A DNA stretch of 20,626 nt from a virus. The notes under the pieces are model-generated. The model was not told where the DNA came from. It worked only from the letters and a program-made list of their open reading frames with translations, and made no database searches. The DNA lies in IMG/VR virus record IMGVR_UViG_3300042350_001896, positions 1-20,626 of that record; one strand, given 5' to 3'. Numbering within the stretch: the stretch's first letter is position 1; each line of letters starts with the position of its first letter. This document shows, in pieces, positions 7,382-19,780 of this stretch. The translations under genes and the position numbers were made by a program.

Positions 7382-7966
7382 ATGCCACGCAAGTCAACCA
7401 AGAAGGCCGCAGAAGCGCCAGAAACCCCTATCGCTGGGGTAGAGCAGCCCGCGCCTCAAAAACCCGCCCAAAAGGCCAAGGTAGGCCGCCCCACCACCTT
7501 CTCCCAGCACATTGCTGACGTCATCTGTATCCGGATAGCTGAAGGGGAAAGCCTCAGGGAGATCGTAAAGGACGAAGGGATGCCCGATCGGTCCACGGTT
7601 TACGATTGGTTGCTGCGTCACTCTTCATTTGCCGACCAATACGCACGCGCCAGAGAAGAGCAGGCCGACACCCTGGCCGACGAGATCATCGCCATCGCCG
7701 ATGAGCAGCCCGAAGTCATTGCCGTGACGAACAAGCAAGGCGAACTGATCGAGCACAAGCTGGACGGCGCCTTCCTCCAGTGGCAGAAGAACCGGATCGA
7801 CGCCCGTAAGTGGACCGCCATGAAGCTCAAGCCCAAGAAGTACGGCGACAAGCTGGCGCTGGGCGGAGACGCCGAAAACCCCCTGAAGGTCGAAGCAGAC
7901 ATCAGTATCTTCGACGCCCTGATCAAGAACATCGAGGCCAAGCGACAAACAAAAGCCCATGGCTGA
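7382..7966 (+). CDS. terS: Terminase small subunit
   Basis: This 194-residue protein directly precedes and overlaps the large terminase gene by 8 nt, the standard arrangement. Residues 1-33 are a disordered Lys/Pro/Ala tail. Residues about 35-80 hold G-R-P-T-T-F followed by a helix-turn-helix (G-E-S-L-R-E-I-V-K-D-E-G-M-P-D-R-S-T-V-Y-D-W-L) that would recognise the packaging site on phage DNA. Residues 81-108 (FADQYARAREEQADTLADEIIAIAD) form the coiled-coil oligomerisation segment typical of the family. The C-terminal K-K-Y-G-D-K region is also usual in these proteins. It would form a ring that loads the large subunit onto DNA. Confidence 0.9.
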   Translation: MPRKSTKKAAEAPETPIAGVEQPAPQKPAQKAKVGRPTTFSQHIADVICIRIAEGESLREIVKDEGMPDRSTVYDWLLRHSSFADQYARAREEQADTLADEIIAIADEQPEVIAVTNKQGELIEHKLDGAFLQWQKNRIDARKWTAMKLKPKKYGDKLALGGDAENPLKVEADISIFDALIKNIEAKRQTKAHG

Positions 7967-9380
7967 TCCGCTGATCGAGACCCTCAAGGACGAGGAGGTT
8001 CGGCAGAAATACGCCCTACTGCCTCCCGAACGGAGGGCCGCCTTCGAGTGGCGCACCAAGTGGCTATCCACCGCCCACGACCATCAGATCCTGCCCCCTG
8101 GGGACTGGTGGACCATCTGGCTGCTGCTGGCTGGCCGCGGTGCAGGGAAAACCCGTACAGCAGCGGAGCAGATCGGCTGGTGGGCCTGGGAGCAGCCTGG
8201 GACCCGGTGGCTGGTGGCCGCCCCGACATCCATGGACGTCCGGTCCACGTGCTTTGAGGGTGAGTCTGGCCTCCTGGCCGTGATCCCTGAGGTCCTGATC
8301 GCCGACTACAACCGGGCGTACCATGAGATCAAGCTCACCAACGGCAGCCTGATCAAGGGCGTCCCGGCGTCTGAGCCTGAGCGTTTCCGCGGTGGCCAGT
8401 ATCACGGGGCATGGCTGGACGAGTTGGCCGCCTGGGAGTACCTGCAAGAGGCGTGGGACATGATCATGTTCTCCGTCCGCCTGGGAACCCAAACCCGCAT
8501 CATGGCTACGACTACCCCGAAGCCGAAGGACCTGATCGTGGACCTGATCGGCCGGGAGGGCGACGACGTCCACCTGACGACGGCCAGCACCTACTCGAAC
8601 ATCGAGCACCTTGCGCCTAGCTTTCAGAAGCAGATCCTCCAGTACGAGGGCACTAAGCTCGGCCGCCAGGAGATCTACGCCGAGATCATCGACCCGGAAG
8701 AGGGTGGCATCGTCTCCCGCGACTGGTTCCGCCTGTGGCCAGCAGACAAGCCCATCCCCCGGCTGGAGTTCGTCCTGCAATCCTACGACTGCGCCTTCAC
8801 CGAGAAGGCCAACAACGACCCAACCGCGGCCATCACCTTTGGGGTGTTCAAGCCCCAGGATGGCGGGATGTCGGTGCTCATCATCGACTGCTGGCAGGAC
8901 CGGCTCCAGTATCCGGACCTCAAGCCCAAGGTCATCGAGGAGTACGAGACCGTCTTCGGGGAGGGCAAGGACCGCAAGCGAGTGGATCTGGTCCTGGTCG
9001 AGGACAAGGCCGCGGGCATATCCCTGATCCAAGACTTACAGCGGGCCCACGTGCCGGTGCGGTCATATAACCCCGGCCGAGCAGATAAGGTCCAGCGCCT
9101 GTCCATCGTGGCCAACATCATCCGGGCCGGAAGGGTATGGGTGCCGGAGTCGATGAATAAGAAAGGGTATGTCCGGGACTGGGCCGAGGGAATGGTTTCC
9201 CAGGTGTGCTCATTCCCCAATACTGACCACGATGATTTCTGCGATGCCTTATCCCAGGCCCTGAGATATTTACGGGATGCAGGATTCCTGAATATCGACC
9301 CGGCTCCTCCCGATGAATTGGACGACGAGGATTACATCGATGCGGGAGTAAACCGACGTGAGAACCCGTATGCAGTTTGA
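7959..9380 (+). CDS. terL: Terminase large subunit (packaging ATPase and nuclease)
   Basis: This 473-residue motor protein pumps DNA into the prohead through the portal and cuts it. The N-terminal ATPase has a Walker A L-A-G-R-G-A-G-K-T (57-65), Walker B G-A-W-L-D-E (150-155, catalytic E155) and coupling motif A-T-T-T-P (183-187). The C-terminal RNase-H-like nuclease has S-Y-D-C-A-F-T-E (first acidic residue), V-E-D-K-A-A-G (second) and N-T-D-H-D-D-F-C-D-A-L (third cluster). All key residues are present and the length is normal. The A-G-R-G-A-G-K-T form of Walker A is typical of the branch often labelled DNA-packaging protein. The tail after about 450 is acidic and may contact portal. It is translated from an ATG overlapping terS. 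Confidence 0.97.
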   Translation: MADPLIETLKDEEVRQKYALLPPERRAAFEWRTKWLSTAHDHQILPPGDWWTIWLLLAGRGAGKTRTAAEQIGWWAWEQPGTRWLVAAPTSMDVRSTCFEGESGLLAVIPEVLIADYNRAYHEIKLTNGSLIKGVPASEPERFRGGQYHGAWLDELAAWEYLQEAWDMIMFSVRLGTQTRIMATTTPKPKDLIVDLIGREGDDVHLTTASTYSNIEHLAPSFQKQILQYEGTKLGRQEIYAEIIDPEEGGIVSRDWFRLWPADKPIPRLEFVLQSYDCAFTEKANNDPTAAITFGVFKPQDGGMSVLIIDCWQDRLQYPDLKPKVIEEYETVFGEGKDRKRVDLVLVEDKAAGISLIQDLQRAHVPVRSYNPGRADKVQRLSIVANIIRAGRVWVPESMNKKGYVRDWAEGMVSQVCSFPNTDHDDFCDALSQALRYLRDAGFLNIDPAPPDELDDEDYIDAGVNRRENPYAV

Positions 9381-9429: not shown

Positions 9430-12400
9430 ATGGCCGACTTTGGAAAGCAGCTTGCCGACATGGTTCTCGGGTCAATACCGGAAGAGAAGCCGTCGGCGCC
9501 TTCGCCGCTTCCGGCCATGCCTTCAAACGTCCCGATTACCGGCGAGATCAAACCTTACGACCCGACATTCCGGGAGATCGCTGCGAGCAAGCTCCAGCGC
9601 GGTATGGAAGCCCTTGGGGTTGATCGATACAAAGCACGCCAGCGGGCTGAGACCCTGATGGGTGGCACAAGCAGCAACTTGCCGCTGGGCATGGGGCTGG
9701 CCGACATCGTCCCGTTCCTGGGTACGGCCATGCAGACTCAAGAGGCTGCCCGCGGTCTCGAAGCAGCAGGTGAGGCAGCCAAGCAGGGTGACTACATCGG
9801 CGCCGGTGTGGAGGGCGTCTTCGGCGCTGTGGGCATGATCCCCGGCATGAAGGGCACGGCATCCGCAACTAAGGCTCTGGCACAAAAGGCCAGGACTCCT
9901 CCAATTCAAGGTAGAATTGAAGACCGTTCGATTCCCGTCCCGATGAGGACGCCGGAGTCTGCTGCGCCAGTGGCGCCTGTAAAACCACAAGGAGTCACGT
10001 ATGAAACAACCCAAGAAGGACCGTTCTATCGAGTCCGCCCAAACCTACCTCAAGCAACTGGGCGACAGAATCGCGGAACGAAAGAAGGTGTTGGGCGCCC
10101 CCAAGGTATCCTCGGACCAACTGGAAGCGATGTTTCGCAATCAGTTACGGACGAAGCAATTCAGCAAATGATGAAGCAGCCGGACAACTTCGTCCGGCAA
10201 GTGGCTGACCAGTACAGCCGCAAGAATGCAGGTGGCCCCTACCAACTGCCCGAAATCCCCGAGTCATCGCTACTGAAGCAGGCCCCGATCGGCCGCGTCT
10301 TCGGTTTGGCCGCCACTGATGACCCGCTTTACAAAACCGCGGTCTTTGACGCCTACGCCAAGAAGTACCCCACCCTGGTGGAGAAGTCTGGCGCCCAGAA
10401 CTACGACCAACTGATGGAGGCGTCGTACCGGCAACTGGCCAAGGAGACTGAGCAACAGTTCCGCGCCCTGCCGATCAATATGTCCTATCACCGCGCTGGT
10501 GAGGGCAACTACGACAACAGCAAGGAACTGCTGCGCGACATCTACGGCAACCGCCACATGTACGTGTACCAGGGCGGTGACCCCCACGACTTCCTGAACG
10601 CCGTCGATCCCAATACCGGCCTGAACACCAATGAGATGTTCCGGGCCGTGCACGACTTCTTTGGCCACGCCATCCACGGCAACCAGTTCGGCCCCAAGGG
10701 GGAAGAGATTGCCTGGGCCGCCCACAGCAAGATGTTCTCGCCCCTGGCCCGCTTGGCCATGACCAGCGAAACCCGCGGCCAGAACAGCTTCGTGAACTAC
10801 ACCCCGCTGAACGCCGAACTGAAGGCCCGCATCAACGAATTGAACGGCCAAGCCTATGAGGCCCGCCGACGTGGCCAGACGGCCATGCTGGACGAGATCA
10901 ACAAGGATCTGGGCGAGGCATGGCAGCAGTTCCAGTTCGCGCCCCAGAAGAGCGTGATCCTGCCGCCTGAGTTCCTCGACCTGAACTACAAGGGTGGCAT
11001 GCCCTCCTCTGTGCAGCCGCTGATCAAGCCAGAGGCCGGTACAACCACCGCGGCCCAATTGACGCACTTCAGCACCCGGCCAGACCTGTCTATGACCGAC
11101 CCCCGTATGTACGGCACCGGCATCAAGGGCGAGGAAATGGCCCGCTTGAAGGACACGCCGGGAGCGGTCATGGAGCGCAGCTACTTCTACGCTGGCCAAC
11201 CCGGCATGATCACGCCGGAGCCAGGGCTGGGCCCATACCGCTATGGCGCTGAGTCTCAGGGCCTGTATGACGTGGCAGCCGACCCGCTGAAGCTGCGGAC
11301 CCTGGCCGCCGAAAGTAGCCGCATCCCTTACACCGCGCCAGCCAACAAGGGTCTGGTGCAGGGCAGCCCATTCACGGACGTAGAGCGACTGGCCAAGGAG
11401 TATGGCTACGAGGGCGTGCTGAACCCCAACCTAACCAAACCCACGGCCATCATGTTCAAACCCACACCAGTGCGCCCATATGCGGGCGGAGGCGCCGTCA
11501 AGGACGCCATCAAGGACAAGCTCAAGGACATGCTTGGCGTGGCCAAAAAAGAAGTGCCCGAGCAGAAGATGATGATGGGCGTCTATCGTGGCTACACCGG
11601 TGAACTGGCCGATGACCCGTCGCTGTCTGCTACCCCGCAGCGCAAAGTGGCCGAGTACTATGCCAACCGCCGAGCCGCAGAGCGTGGTGGCGATCCCCAC
11701 GTTGAGATGCTGATGGTCGACCCGTTCGCTGGCCGCCAGTACGGTCTGGCCATTCCGATCGACAAGTACAACCGCGACGTCACCGTCACCAAAGCCCGGG
11801 AACTCAAGCCTGAGGACGTGAAGGCCCGCACCCAACTCAAGAAGAAGGGTGGCCGGGTTCACATCTCTGACAACCTCGACACCATGCGCCTGTCAATGGC
11901 CGCCGGTGGTTACGTCAGCCCTGATCCGATGCGCGATGAGCTAAAGGGTCTGCTGGGCATGGCCGGTGGTGGCGGCATCAAGGAAAAGCTCAAGGAGAAG
12001 ATCAAGGAGGTCGTCAAGCCCGCCTTCACTCAGAAGCAGCTTGAGTCTACCGCCGAGAAGATGGCCGACAAGATCAAAGCCGACAACCCCAAGCTCTCTG
12101 ACGCTGATGCCATGAAGAAGGGCCTGCGTCAGGCCGAGCAGAAGCTCAAGTGGGAGAAGGTTGAGAAGCCCGCCCTGGAGAAGACTTACGGCGCCCTGGA
12201 GAAGTCCAAGTTCAGCGCCTCCCTGCCGGAGCGTCAGCGCAACGTGCCTGAGGTTGTGGAGAAGCGAATTCAAGAGACCCGCGACTTCCTGGCCCAGCCG
12301 GTGGAGCCTTGGACGCCTCCCCGCAAAGAACTGCAAGCCTTCGACCGTGAGCGCATCAAGGAAGCCCTAGAGGGATTTCCCGGCATCGAGCAGACCCGCT

Positions 12401-13374
12401 TCCCGCGGTACAAGCCTGCCCGTGCTGACCTGAGCCACATCGAAGAGATCTACGAAGACCCGGTCAACCGGGAACTGATCAAGGGCCAGATCACCCGCGG
12501 CCTGCCGTTGGGTGGCGAGACGTTCTATGCGTCTCTCTATCCCCTGAAGCTCGCAGCCCTAGAGCGCGGCATCCCCGAGGAGAAGTTCAACCTCTTCGTG
12601 CACAGCATCGCCCCGGCATCGGCCCGCAACTCGATCATGAACGAGATGGCCGTGGGCCAGTTCCTGCGCGACATGCGTGCTCGTGGCCTGCCCCTCGATG
12701 AGGAGACGGTCACCCGCGAGATGGCCAAGTTCAAGGACCAATACGGCACCGGACTGCCGCTGATGCCTGTGCACCGTGAGGGCGTGAAAAACGTCTTGGA
12801 GGGAAATCAGGACCTGCGCGAACTACTCAAGGCCGACATCCCGACCAACTACAAGATTCCGACTTACGGCACTCAGAAGGCTGGCGACTTCGGTCAGTCA
12901 GTGGTGCTGGACGTCCATGAGGCAGCAGGCCAAACCCGCGGCAGCCGCTTCCATCCCTACTTCACTGAGCAGGGTGGTTTTGGCCCGACCGAGTACGGCG
13001 CGGCCGAGGGCAAGATGCTGGACATCGCTGGTGAGCTTGGCATCCCTGGCGGCATGGCCCAGGCTGGTCGCTGGTTCGGCGGCGGTGAATTAACGGGCCT
13101 GAAGTCTCCGCGTGGCGATGCGCTGGACCTGCTGGAGCGCCAAACGGCGTACACCTTGCAGGGCTCTGGCATCACGCCGACCCCGCGCAACATCCGCAAC
13201 TACATCCTCAACATGATTGATACCGGAGAGGGTGTGCTGATGCCGTGGTTCAAGAAGGAAGGCATGCCTGACCTACGCACCGAGAAGAAGAAGGGCGGCG
13301 CTGTCAAGAAGAAGCGCAAGGTCAAGATCACGAACAACAAGGACGCCCAGATGCTGGCGGCCCTTATCCGATAA
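9430..13374 (+). CDS. Giant multidomain phage protein, probably packaged and injected (polyvalent-type)
   Basis: The product has 1314 residues and starts at ATG 9430 (GAGAGG upstream). It lies between terminase and portal, a usual place for ejected proteins. Visible order: residues 80-160, a Gly/Ala-rich hydrophobic region; about 235-535, a conserved domain with H408-D-F-F-G-H413, E425-E426 and H432, resembling a metal site; 543-625, an ADP-ribosyltransferase-like segment beginning L-T-H-F-S; 685-703, a Gly hinge plus Lys/Asp helix; 717-800, a second such segment with Y-R-G-Y, S-A-T-P-Q and H-V-E; 804-823, a K-K-G-G-R-V tag; 845-863, a second hinge; 864-960, charged helices; 998-1285, a conserved C-terminal domain with D-V-H-E-A-A-G-Q-T-R-G; and a final K-K-G-G-A-V tail. 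Domain functions are inferred from motifs. Residues about 155-245 have weak coding character because another ORF overlaps there. Confidence 0.85.
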   Translation: MADFGKQLADMVLGSIPEEKPSAPSPLPAMPSNVPITGEIKPYDPTFREIAASKLQRGMEALGVDRYKARQRAETLMGGTSSNLPLGMGLADIVPFLGTAMQTQEAARGLEAAGEAAKQGDYIGAGVEGVFGAVGMIPGMKGTASATKALAQKARTPPIQGRIEDRSIPVPMRTPESAAPVAPVKPQGVTYETTQEGPFYRVRPNLPQATGRQNRGTKEGVGRPQGILGPTGSDVSQSVTDEAIQQMMKQPDNFVRQVADQYSRKNAGGPYQLPEIPESSLLKQAPIGRVFGLAATDDPLYKTAVFDAYAKKYPTLVEKSGAQNYDQLMEASYRQLAKETEQQFRALPINMSYHRAGEGNYDNSKELLRDIYGNRHMYVYQGGDPHDFLNAVDPNTGLNTNEMFRAVHDFFGHAIHGNQFGPKGEEIAWAAHSKMFSPLARLAMTSETRGQNSFVNYTPLNAELKARINELNGQAYEARRRGQTAMLDEINKDLGEAWQQFQFAPQKSVILPPEFLDLNYKGGMPSSVQPLIKPEAGTTTAAQLTHFSTRPDLSMTDPRMYGTGIKGEEMARLKDTPGAVMERSYFYAGQPGMITPEPGLGPYRYGAESQGLYDVAADPLKLRTLAAESSRIPYTAPANKGLVQGSPFTDVERLAKEYGYEGVLNPNLTKPTAIMFKPTPVRPYAGGGAVKDAIKDKLKDMLGVAKKEVPEQKMMMGVYRGYTGELADDPSLSATPQRKVAEYYANRRAAERGGDPHVEMLMVDPFAGRQYGLAIPIDKYNRDVTVTKARELKPEDVKARTQLKKKGGRVHISDNLDTMRLSMAAGGYVSPDPMRDELKGLLGMAGGGGIKEKLKEKIKEVVKPAFTQKQLESTAEKMADKIKADNPKLSDADAMKKGLRQAEQKLKWEKVEKPALEKTYGALEKSKFSASLPERQRNVPEVVEKRIQETRDFLAQPVEPWTPPRKELQAFDRERIKEALEGFPGIEQTRFPRYKPARADLSHIEEIYEDPVNRELIKGQITRGLPLGGETFYASLYPLKLAALERGIPEEKFNLFVHSIAPASARNSIMNEMAVGQFLRDMRARGLPLDEETVTREMAKFKDQYGTGLPLMPVHREGVKNVLEGNQDLRELLKADIPTNYKIPTYGTQKAGDFGQSVVLDVHEAAGQTRGSRFHPYFTEQGGFGPTEYGAAEGKMLDIAGELGIPGGMAQAGRWFGGGELTGLKSPRGDALDLLERQTAYTLQGSGITPTPRNIRNYILNMIDTGEGVLMPWFKKEGMPDLRTEKKKGGAVKKKRKVKITNNKDAQMLAALIR
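10001..10171 (+). CDS. Overlapping 56-codon ORF inside the giant gene (+1 frame)
   Basis: ATG at 10001 has AAGGAG 6 nt upstream. The 56-residue product is basic and helical: MKQPKKDRSIESAQTYLKQL, then G-D-R-I-A-E-R-K-K-V-L-G-A-P-K-V, then Q-L-E-A-M-F-R-N-Q-L. By hand count 39 of 56 codons (70%) in this frame end in G/C. The giant gene's own frame has only 21 of 57 (37%) over the same bases, against 37 of 49 (76%) just downstream. So coding constraint moves to this frame for the length of the ORF. Its TGA (10169-10171) overlaps ATGATG in the giant gene's frame, as at a coupled gene junction. No function is known. The ORF could be an overprinted gene, or a former separate gene over which its neighbours fused. 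Confidence 0.6.
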   Translation: MKQPKKDRSIESAQTYLKQLGDRIAERKKVLGAPKVSSDQLEAMFRNQLRTKQFSK

Positions 13375-13388
13375 GAGAAGGTTAGAAC

Positions 13389-15911
13389 ATGGCCACTGAA
13401 TTCCCCATTGATCCCGAGTACGGACGATTCATTGAAGGCATCCCTGACGAGGCGATGGAAGAGGAAGACATCGAGGTCGAACTGCCTCCTGAAGAGGCGG
13501 AGATCGAAGAGCTTCCCGATGGGTCGGCCGTAGTCAAGATGGAGACCGAAGGGCCGATGGAAGACGAGGACTTCTACCAGAACCTCGCCGAGACCGTCGA
13601 CCCCATGAAGCTGGACTCGATGGCCCTGCGATTCATCGATCTGGTTAAGAAAGACAAGCAGGCCCGCGAAGAGCGAGACAAGCAATACGAAGAGGGACTG
13701 AAGCGCACCGGCATGGGCAAGGATGCTCCTGGTGGCGCCACCTTCATGGGCGCCTCAAAGGTTGTGCACCCTGTCATGGCTGAAGCCTGCGTGGACTTTG
13801 CCTCCCGCGCCATCAAGGAATTGTTCCCGCCGGATGGCCCGGTGCGGACCAAGATCCTGGGCGTTGCTGACGAGGAGAAAGTTCAACGCGCCGAGCGCAA
13901 GCGCGACTACATGAACTGGCAGTTGACGGAGCAGATTGAAGAGTTCCGCGATGAGCAGGAGCAGCTTCTGACCCAGCTACCCCTGGGCGGCTCTCAGTAC
14001 CTCAAGCTCTGGTACGACGAGGACAAAAAGAGGCCCTGCGCTGAGTTCATGCCCATCGATCGCGTGATCGTACCGTTTGCCGCGACAAACTTCTACACGG
14101 CACAGCGTGCAACCGAAGTGCACGACATCACCGAGTGGGAGTTCAAGCGCCGCATTCGTTCGGGTTTGTACCGAGACATTAGTCTCATCCGCGCAACAAT
14201 GGAGCCGGAAGAGTCCAAGGCCCAGAAGGCCAACGACAAGATCGAAGGCCGCAAGTTTGAGGACAACGAAGACGGCGTGCGCGTCGTCTATCACATCTAT
14301 ACGTGGCTGGAGATCGACGAAGACGGCCGGTCCAAAGGCGAAAGCGCCCCGTACGTGCTCATGATCGATGAGCTTGAGAACGAGGTGGTGGGCCTGTACC
14401 GCAACTGGGAAGAAGGCGACGAGACCATGACCAAGCTCGACTGGGTCGTGGAGTTCAAATTCATCCCCTGGCGCGGTGCTTACGCCATCGGCATGCCTCA
14501 CCTTATCGGTGGACTGTCTGCCGCTCTGACGGGCGCCCTGCGTGCTTTGCTGGACTCCGCGCACATCAACAACGCGGCAACCATGCTCAAGCTCAAGGGT
14601 GCCAAGATCTCTGGCCAGAGCCAGCAGGTGGACGTCACCCAGGTCTGCGAGATCGAAGGCGCCCCAGGCGTGGACGACATCCGCAAGATCGCCATGCCCA
14701 TGCCGTTCAATCCGCCGTCTCCGGTGCTGCTGGAGCTTCTGGGCTGGCTGGATAAGGCCGCCAAGGGTGTGGTGACCACCGCGGAAGAGAAGATCGCTGA
14801 CGTGACCTCCAACGCGCCGGTGGGCACGACTCAGGCACTCATCGAGCAGGGCGCCGCCGTGTTCTCTGCGATTCATGCCCGACTGCATGACTCCCAGGCT
14901 CGGGTGCTCAAGATCCTGGGCCGCCTGAACCGGTGGTACCTGGAAGACCAGCGTAAGGGCGAGATCGTCGCCGACCTGGAGATCGACAAGGAAGACTTCC
15001 GCCGCAACACCGACGTGGTGCCGGTGTCTGATCCGCACATCTTTTCCGAGACCCAGCGTATGGCCCAGATTCAGGCCGTGCTGGCCCGGGCTGACAAGTA
15101 CCCGGATCTGTATGACCGCAGGGCTGTGGAGGAGCGATTCCTCAAGCAGATCAAGATCCCTGGCATCAACGAGATCCTCAAGAACACCCCGGCACCGGAA
15201 GAGCGCAACCCGGCCGACGAAAACGTGGCCATGGCTATCGGGCAGAACGGCTATGCCTACATCCACCAGGACCATCTGGCTCACATTCAGAGCCACCTGG
15301 ACTTCGGCCTGAACCCGGCTTTCGGTGGTAATCCCATCATGGCCTCGATCTACCTGCCGCGTGCCCTGGAGCACATCAAGCAGCACATGGTCCTGTGGTA
15401 CCTCAACCGTACCAATGGCTACGTGACCAAGGCCCGCAACAACCGGCCGATCACCGAGCAGGAGTACGAAGACGTGCGCCTGACGGCCGAGATCGACAAG
15501 GTGTTTGCCCTGGCGTCTCAACACGTCGCCGAAGATGCTCAGAAGGTCTTCGAGCAGGTGGTGCCCAAGGTCCAGGAAATGCTCCAGGCTATGCAGCAAC
15601 TCACGCCTAAGCCGCAATTGCCGCCTGAGGCGCAGGTTCTCATGGAGACCAGCATGGCCGAGACCAACCGTCGCGCCCAGCGTGATCAGGGTGAGCTTGC
15701 CCTACAGAACCAGAAGATGACTCTGGATGCCGAGAAAGATGCTCGCCGTGAGCAGATTGACGTGGCGCTGAATGCCGCGGACAACCTCACGAAGGAGCGT
15801 ATTGAGACTGCACGTTTGACGCAAAAAGACGCCGAACTGCAATCAGAGCAGTTTGAAACTGCAATTTCGCTTCAGAACGAAGCACAACGCCGACTACTTG
15901 GAGGTTTCTAA
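13389..15911 (+). CDS. Portal protein (head-tail connector)
   Basis: This 840-residue protein would form the dodecameric ring at one vertex of the head through which DNA enters and leaves. The first 70 residues are very acidic and include E-E-L-P-D-G-S-A-V-V (40-49). The conserved portal-type core has G-A-T-F-M-G-A-S-K-V-V-H-P, A-C-V-D-F-A-S-R-A-I-K-E-L-F-P-P-D-G-P-V-R, later A-L-T-G-A-L-R-A-L-L-D-S-A-H-I-N-N-A, and V-G-T-T-Q-A-L-I-E-Q-G. That core is typical of long portals in phages of aquatic bacteria. The last 150 residues are Gln/Glu-rich coiled coil (barrel and internal tail). AGAAGG is the ribosome site, and the stop overlaps the next start as TAATG. The large size suits a podovirus-like connector, but tail type cannot be decided here. 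Confidence 0.9.
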   Translation: MATEFPIDPEYGRFIEGIPDEAMEEEDIEVELPPEEAEIEELPDGSAVVKMETEGPMEDEDFYQNLAETVDPMKLDSMALRFIDLVKKDKQAREERDKQYEEGLKRTGMGKDAPGGATFMGASKVVHPVMAEACVDFASRAIKELFPPDGPVRTKILGVADEEKVQRAERKRDYMNWQLTEQIEEFRDEQEQLLTQLPLGGSQYLKLWYDEDKKRPCAEFMPIDRVIVPFAATNFYTAQRATEVHDITEWEFKRRIRSGLYRDISLIRATMEPEESKAQKANDKIEGRKFEDNEDGVRVVYHIYTWLEIDEDGRSKGESAPYVLMIDELENEVVGLYRNWEEGDETMTKLDWVVEFKFIPWRGAYAIGMPHLIGGLSAALTGALRALLDSAHINNAATMLKLKGAKISGQSQQVDVTQVCEIEGAPGVDDIRKIAMPMPFNPPSPVLLELLGWLDKAAKGVVTTAEEKIADVTSNAPVGTTQALIEQGAAVFSAIHARLHDSQARVLKILGRLNRWYLEDQRKGEIVADLEIDKEDFRRNTDVVPVSDPHIFSETQRMAQIQAVLARADKYPDLYDRRAVEERFLKQIKIPGINEILKNTPAPEERNPADENVAMAIGQNGYAYIHQDHLAHIQSHLDFGLNPAFGGNPIMASIYLPRALEHIKQHMVLWYLNRTNGYVTKARNNRPITEQEYEDVRLTAEIDKVFALASQHVAEDAQKVFEQVVPKVQEMLQAMQQLTPKPQLPPEAQVLMETSMAETNRRAQRDQGELALQNQKMTLDAEKDARREQIDVALNAADNLTKERIETARLTQKDAELQSEQFETAISLQNEAQRRLLGGF

Positions 15912-18862: not shown

Positions 18863-19780
18863 ATGGCAGCCCCGATGCGTAGTACAGACTTTCGTTCCAT
18901 CGTTGAGCCAATCCTCAACGAATGTTTCGATGGAGTCTATGATCAACGTGCCGACGAATGGTCGCGTGTTTTCCGCGAGCAAGAAGGCATTCCCCGCAAC
19001 TATCACGAAGAGCCGGTCCTGTATGGATTTGGCGCTGCTCCCCAACTGCCTGATGGCACTCCGGTGTCTTATCAGCAGGGTGGTGTGCTCTTCCTCAAGC
19101 GTTACGTGTACAACGTATATGGTCTGGCATTCAGCTTGACCAAGGTGCTGGTGGAAGACGGCGACCATATCCGTATCGGTCAGGTTTACGCTCGTCACCT
19201 TGCTCAGTCGCTGATTGAGACCAAGGAGACCCTGTGCGCCAACGTGCTGAACAATGCCTTCACCGGCGGTTCGTACGCAGGTGGCGACGGCGTGGCCCTG
19301 AACTCCGCTTCTCACCCCATCGTCAACGGTACGTTCAGCAACCTGCTGACCACCGCCGCGAACCTTTCGCAGACGTCCCTGGAGCAGATGCTGATCCAGA
19401 TCCGTCAGGCTGTGGACAACAACGGCAAGAAGATTCGTCTGGTGCCCCGCCAACTGGTGGTCGCTCCTGGCAACCTCTTCCAGGCCGAGGTGCTGCTGAA
19501 GTCCGTGCTGCGTGCAGGTAACGCAAACAACGACATCAACCCGATCAAGTCTATTGGCTTGCTCGACGAGGGTGCCGCTGTTCTGTCGCGTCTGACCAGT
19601 GCCACCGCATGGTGGGTGCAGACCGACGCTCCTGAGGGTATGAAACTCATGATGCGTCGCAAACTGGAGAAGACCATGGAAGGCGACTTTGAGACCGACA
19701 CCATGCGCTACAAAGCAACTGAGCGTTACGATGTTGGCTTCACTGACTGGCGTGCCATGTACGGCACTCCGGGCGTCTAA
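18863..19780 (+). CDS. Major capsid protein (HK97-fold type)
   Basis: This 305-residue protein, with a strong GGAGG ribosome site, stands in the expected place after scaffold and decoration genes. The opening is an N-terminal helix (F-R-S-I-V-E-P-I-L-N). The central part has K-R-Y-V-Y-N-V-Y-G-L-A-F-S-L-T-K-V-L-V-E-D-G-D and E-T-L-C-A-N-V-L-N-N-A-F. The typical P-domain/A-domain turn L-V-P-R-Q-L-V-V-A-P-G-N-L-F-Q-A-E follows, and near the end Y-D-V-G-F-T-D-W-R-A-M-Y-G-T-P. The phrase L-V-V-x-P-x-L-x-x-x-A, as in Mu-type gpT heads, is a strong sign of the fold. There is no long N-terminal delta domain, consistent with a separate scaffold. A stable hairpin follows the stop. Confidence 0.9.
   Translation: MAAPMRSTDFRSIVEPILNECFDGVYDQRADEWSRVFREQEGIPRNYHEEPVLYGFGAAPQLPDGTPVSYQQGGVLFLKRYVYNVYGLAFSLTKVLVEDGDHIRIGQVYARHLAQSLIETKETLCANVLNNAFTGGSYAGGDGVALNSASHPIVNGTFSNLLTTAANLSQTSLEQMLIQIRQAVDNNGKKIRLVPRQLVVAPGNLFQAEVLLKSVLRAGNANNDINPIKSIGLLDEGAAVLSRLTSATAWWVQTDAPEGMKLMMRRKLEKTMEGDFETDTMRYKATERYDVGFTDWRAMYGTPGV

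Follow-up and report, generated by a model that had tools for sequence, protein, structure and literature searches.

The window, by which we mean the whole 20.6 kb viral fragment that was analysed, carries a terminase small subunit gene (7382-7966), a terminase large subunit gene (7959-9380, + strand), a giant ORF of 1314 aa (9430-13374, + strand), a portal protein gene (13389-15911, + strand) and a major capsid-like protein gene (18863-19780). The giant ORF lies in a late-gene setting with the terminase and portal genes on either side, and its product is of the polyvalent type, with proteins named large polyvalent and ART-PolyVal among its structural neighbours. Like the phage polyvalent proteins described by Iyer et al. 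2017 (PMC5512222), it is very large and its gene has terminase and portal genes as neighbours; overlapping or nested ORFs did not come up in a term search of that paper. Residues 358-458 match phrog_3170 in PHROGs, a family of unknown function, and searches of the giant ORF against Pfam, NCBIfam and PADLOC gave no match. By eye, the C-terminal half (11020-13374) has an ADP-ribosyltransferase-type look, for example at GVYRGYTGE, with no confirming profile match.

A conserved domain of the giant protein is here called dom (10180-11019, + strand; giant residues ~251-530). Its most conserved motif, HDFFGH...GEE (10651-10707, + strand; invariant as HDxxGH...GEE), is possibly a metal site. No credible family match to dom was found in Pfam, and a Foldseek search of its predicted fold against the PDB returned weak, non-global matches only. 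The best of these were aromatic amino acid hydroxylases (E 0.03, prob 0.15, TM 0.11), and with such weak scores a similar metal site in dom is at most hinted at.

Immediately upstream of dom, a 56-codon ORF, here called P1 (10001-10171, + strand), is wholly nested in the giant ORF in its +1 frame. It begins with an ATG that follows a Shine-Dalgarno-like AAGGAG (9989-9994, + strand) by 6 nt. The first-pass annotation had described this ORF, its frame, its start and its ribosome binding site correctly, and its hand count of third-position G/C (GC3; 70% in the +1 frame against 37% in the giant frame) was reproduced at 70% against 36-37% over the ORF, as was the recovery of the giant frame just after it (34 of 43 codons). 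Its reading of these figures fared less well. The signature does not switch exactly at the ORF, as had been claimed, since the giant-frame dip starts at ~9850, about 150 bases earlier, and 70% is an ordinary value for a +1 frame that averages 64% over the whole gene. In the proline-rich linker upstream of the P1 start (9850-9999), giant-frame GC3 is already low (24 of 50 codons). The informative figure is the giant-frame low itself, which reaches 0.34; 56-codon windows that start elsewhere than in 9700-10200 never fall below 0.64. With the giant protein fixed and its synonymous codons drawn at random, the +1 frame would be open here with a probability of ~0.25, so that the ORF by itself is not beyond chance in this sequence and its significance comes from relatives.

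Conservation of the nested ORF among relatives

Relatives were collected by scanning viral contigs with P1, the giant N-terminus and dom as queries, and are metagenomic contigs nearly throughout. The P1 alignment over diverse relatives is highly variable and unsuited as a scan query; one scan returned more than 579 relatives of dom, 80 of which were kept. By HMM score, P1 occurs in the same +1 frame and the same place in at least 125 of 128 distinct dom loci, so that the 56-residue product does have homologues, and the three loci without it are distant relatives with 38-39% identity in dom. Wherever the dom locus is complete (96 loci, leaving out L035, in which a contig end cuts the region), P1 is always in the +1 frame and the giant frame is free of stops across it. 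The same holds for all 98 non-redundant loci aligned in detail. Among relatives P1 has 53-64 codons and its stop usually lies 8-20 nt upstream of the dom start, reaching at most 13 nt past it in two loci. The length of open giant frame upstream of P1 varies by locus from 7 to 938 codons. Of 84 distinct P1 starts, 75 have an upstream tetramer resembling a Shine-Dalgarno site, as against 9.5% of other ATGs, and the ATG itself is found in aligned relatives, so that P1 appears to have a start of its own. The overlap of P1 and the giant frame is old and stable.

The P1 profile matched no other place within the 98 loci, and in none of them did P1 stand as a gene of its own ahead of the large proteins, which is where the first-pass annotation had suggested looking. 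MW202545 and Caulobacter phage RW, both related in the terminase large subunit (TerL), have no P1 beside the TerL gene; the 71-aa gene after TerL in MW202545 is unrelated by eye. In three loci (L090, L092 and L094) P1 and dom lie together downstream of the portal gene and not between the terminase and portal genes, and from this difference in gene order we regard the pair as a movable unit. In another locus (L071), the terminase large subunit encoded upstream of dom seems, by eye only, to have an intein-like insertion (CLPAGTRISMADGTRKAVEDVAVGDKVLT...EYIANGIVVHNC).

No match to P1 was obtained with tblastn against annotated phages and plasmids, and none that was credible in Pfam, PHROGs, NCBIfam, PADLOC or PDB sequences, where hits were marginal and inconsistent. 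The best PDB hit, 8fjf (E 0.0009), covers just 18 positions and was not relied on. P1 is not listed in the annotations that could be checked, and a literature search of incomplete coverage found no report of the gene.

Selection in both reading frames

If only the giant frame were functional, the +1 ORF would follow from base composition and from a conserved motif of the giant protein. The chance of ~0.25 that a single ORF of this length stays open suits this explanation, as does the N-terminus of P1 (MKQxKKxxSTES), whose residues the giant motif YETxQEGPFYRV partly determines; over P1 codons 2-13 the dN/dS of P1 is 1.28, which is not below 1. Past codon 13, however, dN/dS falls to 0.21 for P1 (0.49 for the giant frame), and giant-frame synonymous sites are constrained inside the ORF and not after it, with third-position divergence of 0.33-0.43 within the overlap against 0.56-0.67 in dom. 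Across 30 independent close pairs, dN/dS was 0.24 (0.18-0.33) for P1 and 0.32 (0.24-0.40) for the giant frame in the overlap; the control, the same +1 frame outside the ORF, in dom, gave 0.96. Identity in the +1 frame was also twice what the giant protein would impose. In 196 diverged pairs, with differences at over half of the third positions in dom, it was 0.302, when 0.138 ± 0.004 was expected with the giant proteins fixed and synonymous codons drawn at random. Along the gene (1417 pairs), the ratio of observed to expected +1-frame identity was 1.94 and 2.14 inside the ORF and 0.98-1.15 over the next ~250 residues. The excess stops at the ORF end, and this along-gene comparison also sets a limit on any bias due to shared ancestry. 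Together with the ribosome binding sites at 75 of 84 starts, these results make a functional giant frame with an idle +1 frame highly improbable.

The converse, with P1 as the sole real product of the overlap, a giant protein that begins only after it and a giant frame that stays open there by accident, is brought to mind by one short clade in which the giant start codon stands only 16-28 nt ahead of the P1 ATG. Against it, the reciprocal test on the same pairs, with the P1 proteins fixed and synonymous codons random, gave a giant identity of 0.319 observed versus 0.147 ± 0.004 expected, and the dN/dS of 0.32 bespeaks purifying selection on the host frame. Random synonymous P1 codons would often create a giant-frame stop, yet none occurs in the 98 loci; the product of these chances over 31 clusters is ~1e-58, a figure not to be taken literally, as the relatives are phylogenetically dependent and the clusters not independent. 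The giant motif at the start of the overlap is, moreover, confidently predicted to form a beta hairpin. We therefore consider a P1-only explanation very improbable as well.

Constraint on the RNA or DNA, such as a regulatory structure or a packaging site, could also slow divergence, and the region does adjoin the terminase genes. Divergence nevertheless tracks the codon phase of P1, whose third position is the most variable past codon 13, and the length of P1 varies among relatives with the +1 frame kept. The RNA fold is ordinary (z = -0.52), and an Rfam search across the region gave no match. A nucleic acid signal in place of a second protein is accordingly extremely improbable.

Conservation was thus not confined to the giant frame. 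The same +1 frame is kept across diverged relatives, with purifying selection on both frames, and the first-pass annotation's proposal of true dual coding is upheld by the two-frame tests. On this comparative evidence, we conclude with high confidence that P1 is a genuine nested gene and that 10001-10171 is dual coding. In the first 12-13 codons the giant motif YETxQEGPFYRV is the main constraint; in the remainder it is P1, with weaker constraint on the giant frame.

Predicted structures of the two products

The product of P1 is basic (pI 10.3 in the window; family median 10.1), and AlphaFold2 predicts two helices at residues 8-31 and 38-55 (pLDDT 79), a putative helical hairpin in keeping with the basic helical protein first proposed; a pTM of 0.36 leaves the arrangement of the helices uncertain. 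A fold search with P1 gave no match. The giant-frame overlap together with dom is well predicted (pLDDT 88, pTM 0.87). In this model the first 13 residues of the overlap, YETTQEGPFYRVR (10000-10038, + strand), form a beta hairpin that shares its bases with P1 codons 1-13, where both frames are constrained. Residues 31-47 (10090-10140, + strand) are predicted to be disordered, with pLDDT below 50, and this segment covers P1 helices. According to these models, the bases of the P1 helices would mostly encode a disordered giant-protein linker in the other frame, and those of the loose P1 N-terminus the giant hairpin.

A second nested ORF family

A distant dom family, that of MW202675 (ct7L0027), carries a +1 ORF of its own, P2, in a place equivalent to that of P1. 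P2 has the sequence PxHILxHAPKRENFQTQEEYEEALAFFKHRTKHLLK and, MW202675 aside, could be recognised in 12 of the 16 loci that were fetched; of the other four, L331 is cut by a contig end and L341-L343 are without it. The P2 loci are L326 (4777-4914), L345 (2122-2328; OL906435.1 2122-2328), L102, L328-L330 and L332-L340. The giant frame is free of stops across P2. Under the same null, observed over expected +1 identity is 2.33 inside P2, 1.26 over the next 50 codons and 0.99-1.03 beyond, and giant third-position divergence is 0.335 within P2 versus 0.55-0.59 outside, so that here, too, both frames are conserved. Profile comparison could not demonstrate homology between P1 and P2 (hhalign probability 0.3%). 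A similar 69-aa ORF behind AGGAGG is present in the cultured cyanophages MinM2, Pag-Yong1 and Pra-JY27, and in Planktothrix phage Pag-Yong1 a distant relative of the giant protein is annotated 'large polyvalent protein'. P1 itself was found in no cultured phage. The records inspected for P2 list only the giant gene at that place. Since the P1 product is in no library checked either, such genes are probably missed systematically.

Discussion

Nested genes are known in phages, an example being Rz1, the lysis lipoprotein of the Rz/Rz1-type gene pairs of tailed phages. P1 is like Rz1 in being short, wholly nested on the same strand in the +1 frame and provided with its own start. It differs in its product, a predicted soluble basic helical hairpin, and in its location in the packaging and head region, and its sequence has neither the cysteine of a lipobox nor a hydrophobic signal. 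P1 also resembles the overprinted genes of Microviridae, such as E and K of phiX174 (PMC8227390), in yielding a second protein from another frame of an existing gene. Microviridae, however, are small ssDNA phages with tight limits on genome size, unlike the close relatives of the window, which lie in contigs of ~52-57 kb. Compaction alone is a weak explanation for P1, because tailed phages have room for separate genes, and coupled expression or overprinting is more likely. Nested phage genes as such are already known; P1 adds a family that is absent from Pfam, PHROGs, NCBIfam and PADLOC, and what is unusual is its fixed tie to one domain and the existence of a second family.

From what is established about Shine-Dalgarno initiation, we infer that P1 is translated by internal initiation. 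Ribosomes would initiate at the internal Shine-Dalgarno site, translate 53-64 codons of the +1 frame and usually finish 8-20 bases before the dom codons, and other ribosomes would read the same bases as giant protein. The coding burden would be split unevenly, with the first ~12 codons serving the giant protein and its beta-hairpin motif, across the loose N-terminus of P1, and the rest serving the helical hairpin of P1, across the giant protein's disordered linker.

As to function, P1 may act as a small protein partner to the polyvalent protein that carries dom, either an assembly or loading chaperone or an inhibitor or immunity factor in the producing cell. This role is the likeliest because P1 stays with dom despite changing upstream sequence and gene order (L090, L092 and L094), and nesting would let both proteins be made in the same place and at the same time; we put it forward tentatively. 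The separate +1 ORF at the equivalent place in the distant dom family speaks for a partner. Against it, dom occurs with no nested ORF in Mel-JY33, in L341-L343 and in actinophages, for example ErnieJ gp101, and homology of P1 to P2 could not be shown.

The origin of the overlap is a separate matter, compatible with dual coding in either direction. P1 could have been an older gene between the terminase genes and dom, over which the giant frame grew by fusion. P1 looks structured in the models and much of the giant overlap disordered, and with a disordered linker over a structured P1 it is equally conceivable that the giant frame grew over P1; the sequences upstream of P1 are also exchangeable. 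A stand-alone P1 is, however, found in none of the 98 loci examined, and dom is more widespread than P1 and also occurs without it, which suggests that dom is older and favours P1 arising in the linker. We regard an origin by fusion as possible but rather unlikely, and the fusion over an older small gene that the first-pass annotation had raised finds no direct support as a recent event.

Conclusions

P1 represents clear, conserved dual coding in tailed phages, and the predicted division of labour, with P1 helices encoded across a disordered stretch of the giant protein, makes it a neat case from nature of two proteins sharing the same DNA. It is conceivable, if somewhat doubtful, that polyvalent proteins recurrently carry a nested +1 gene just ahead of their HDxxGH domain, in at least two distant families (P1 and P2), and that this gene encodes a dedicated co-translated partner of the domain, such as an inhibitor or loading factor. 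The equivalent ORF in cultured cyanophages makes this question open to bench testing.
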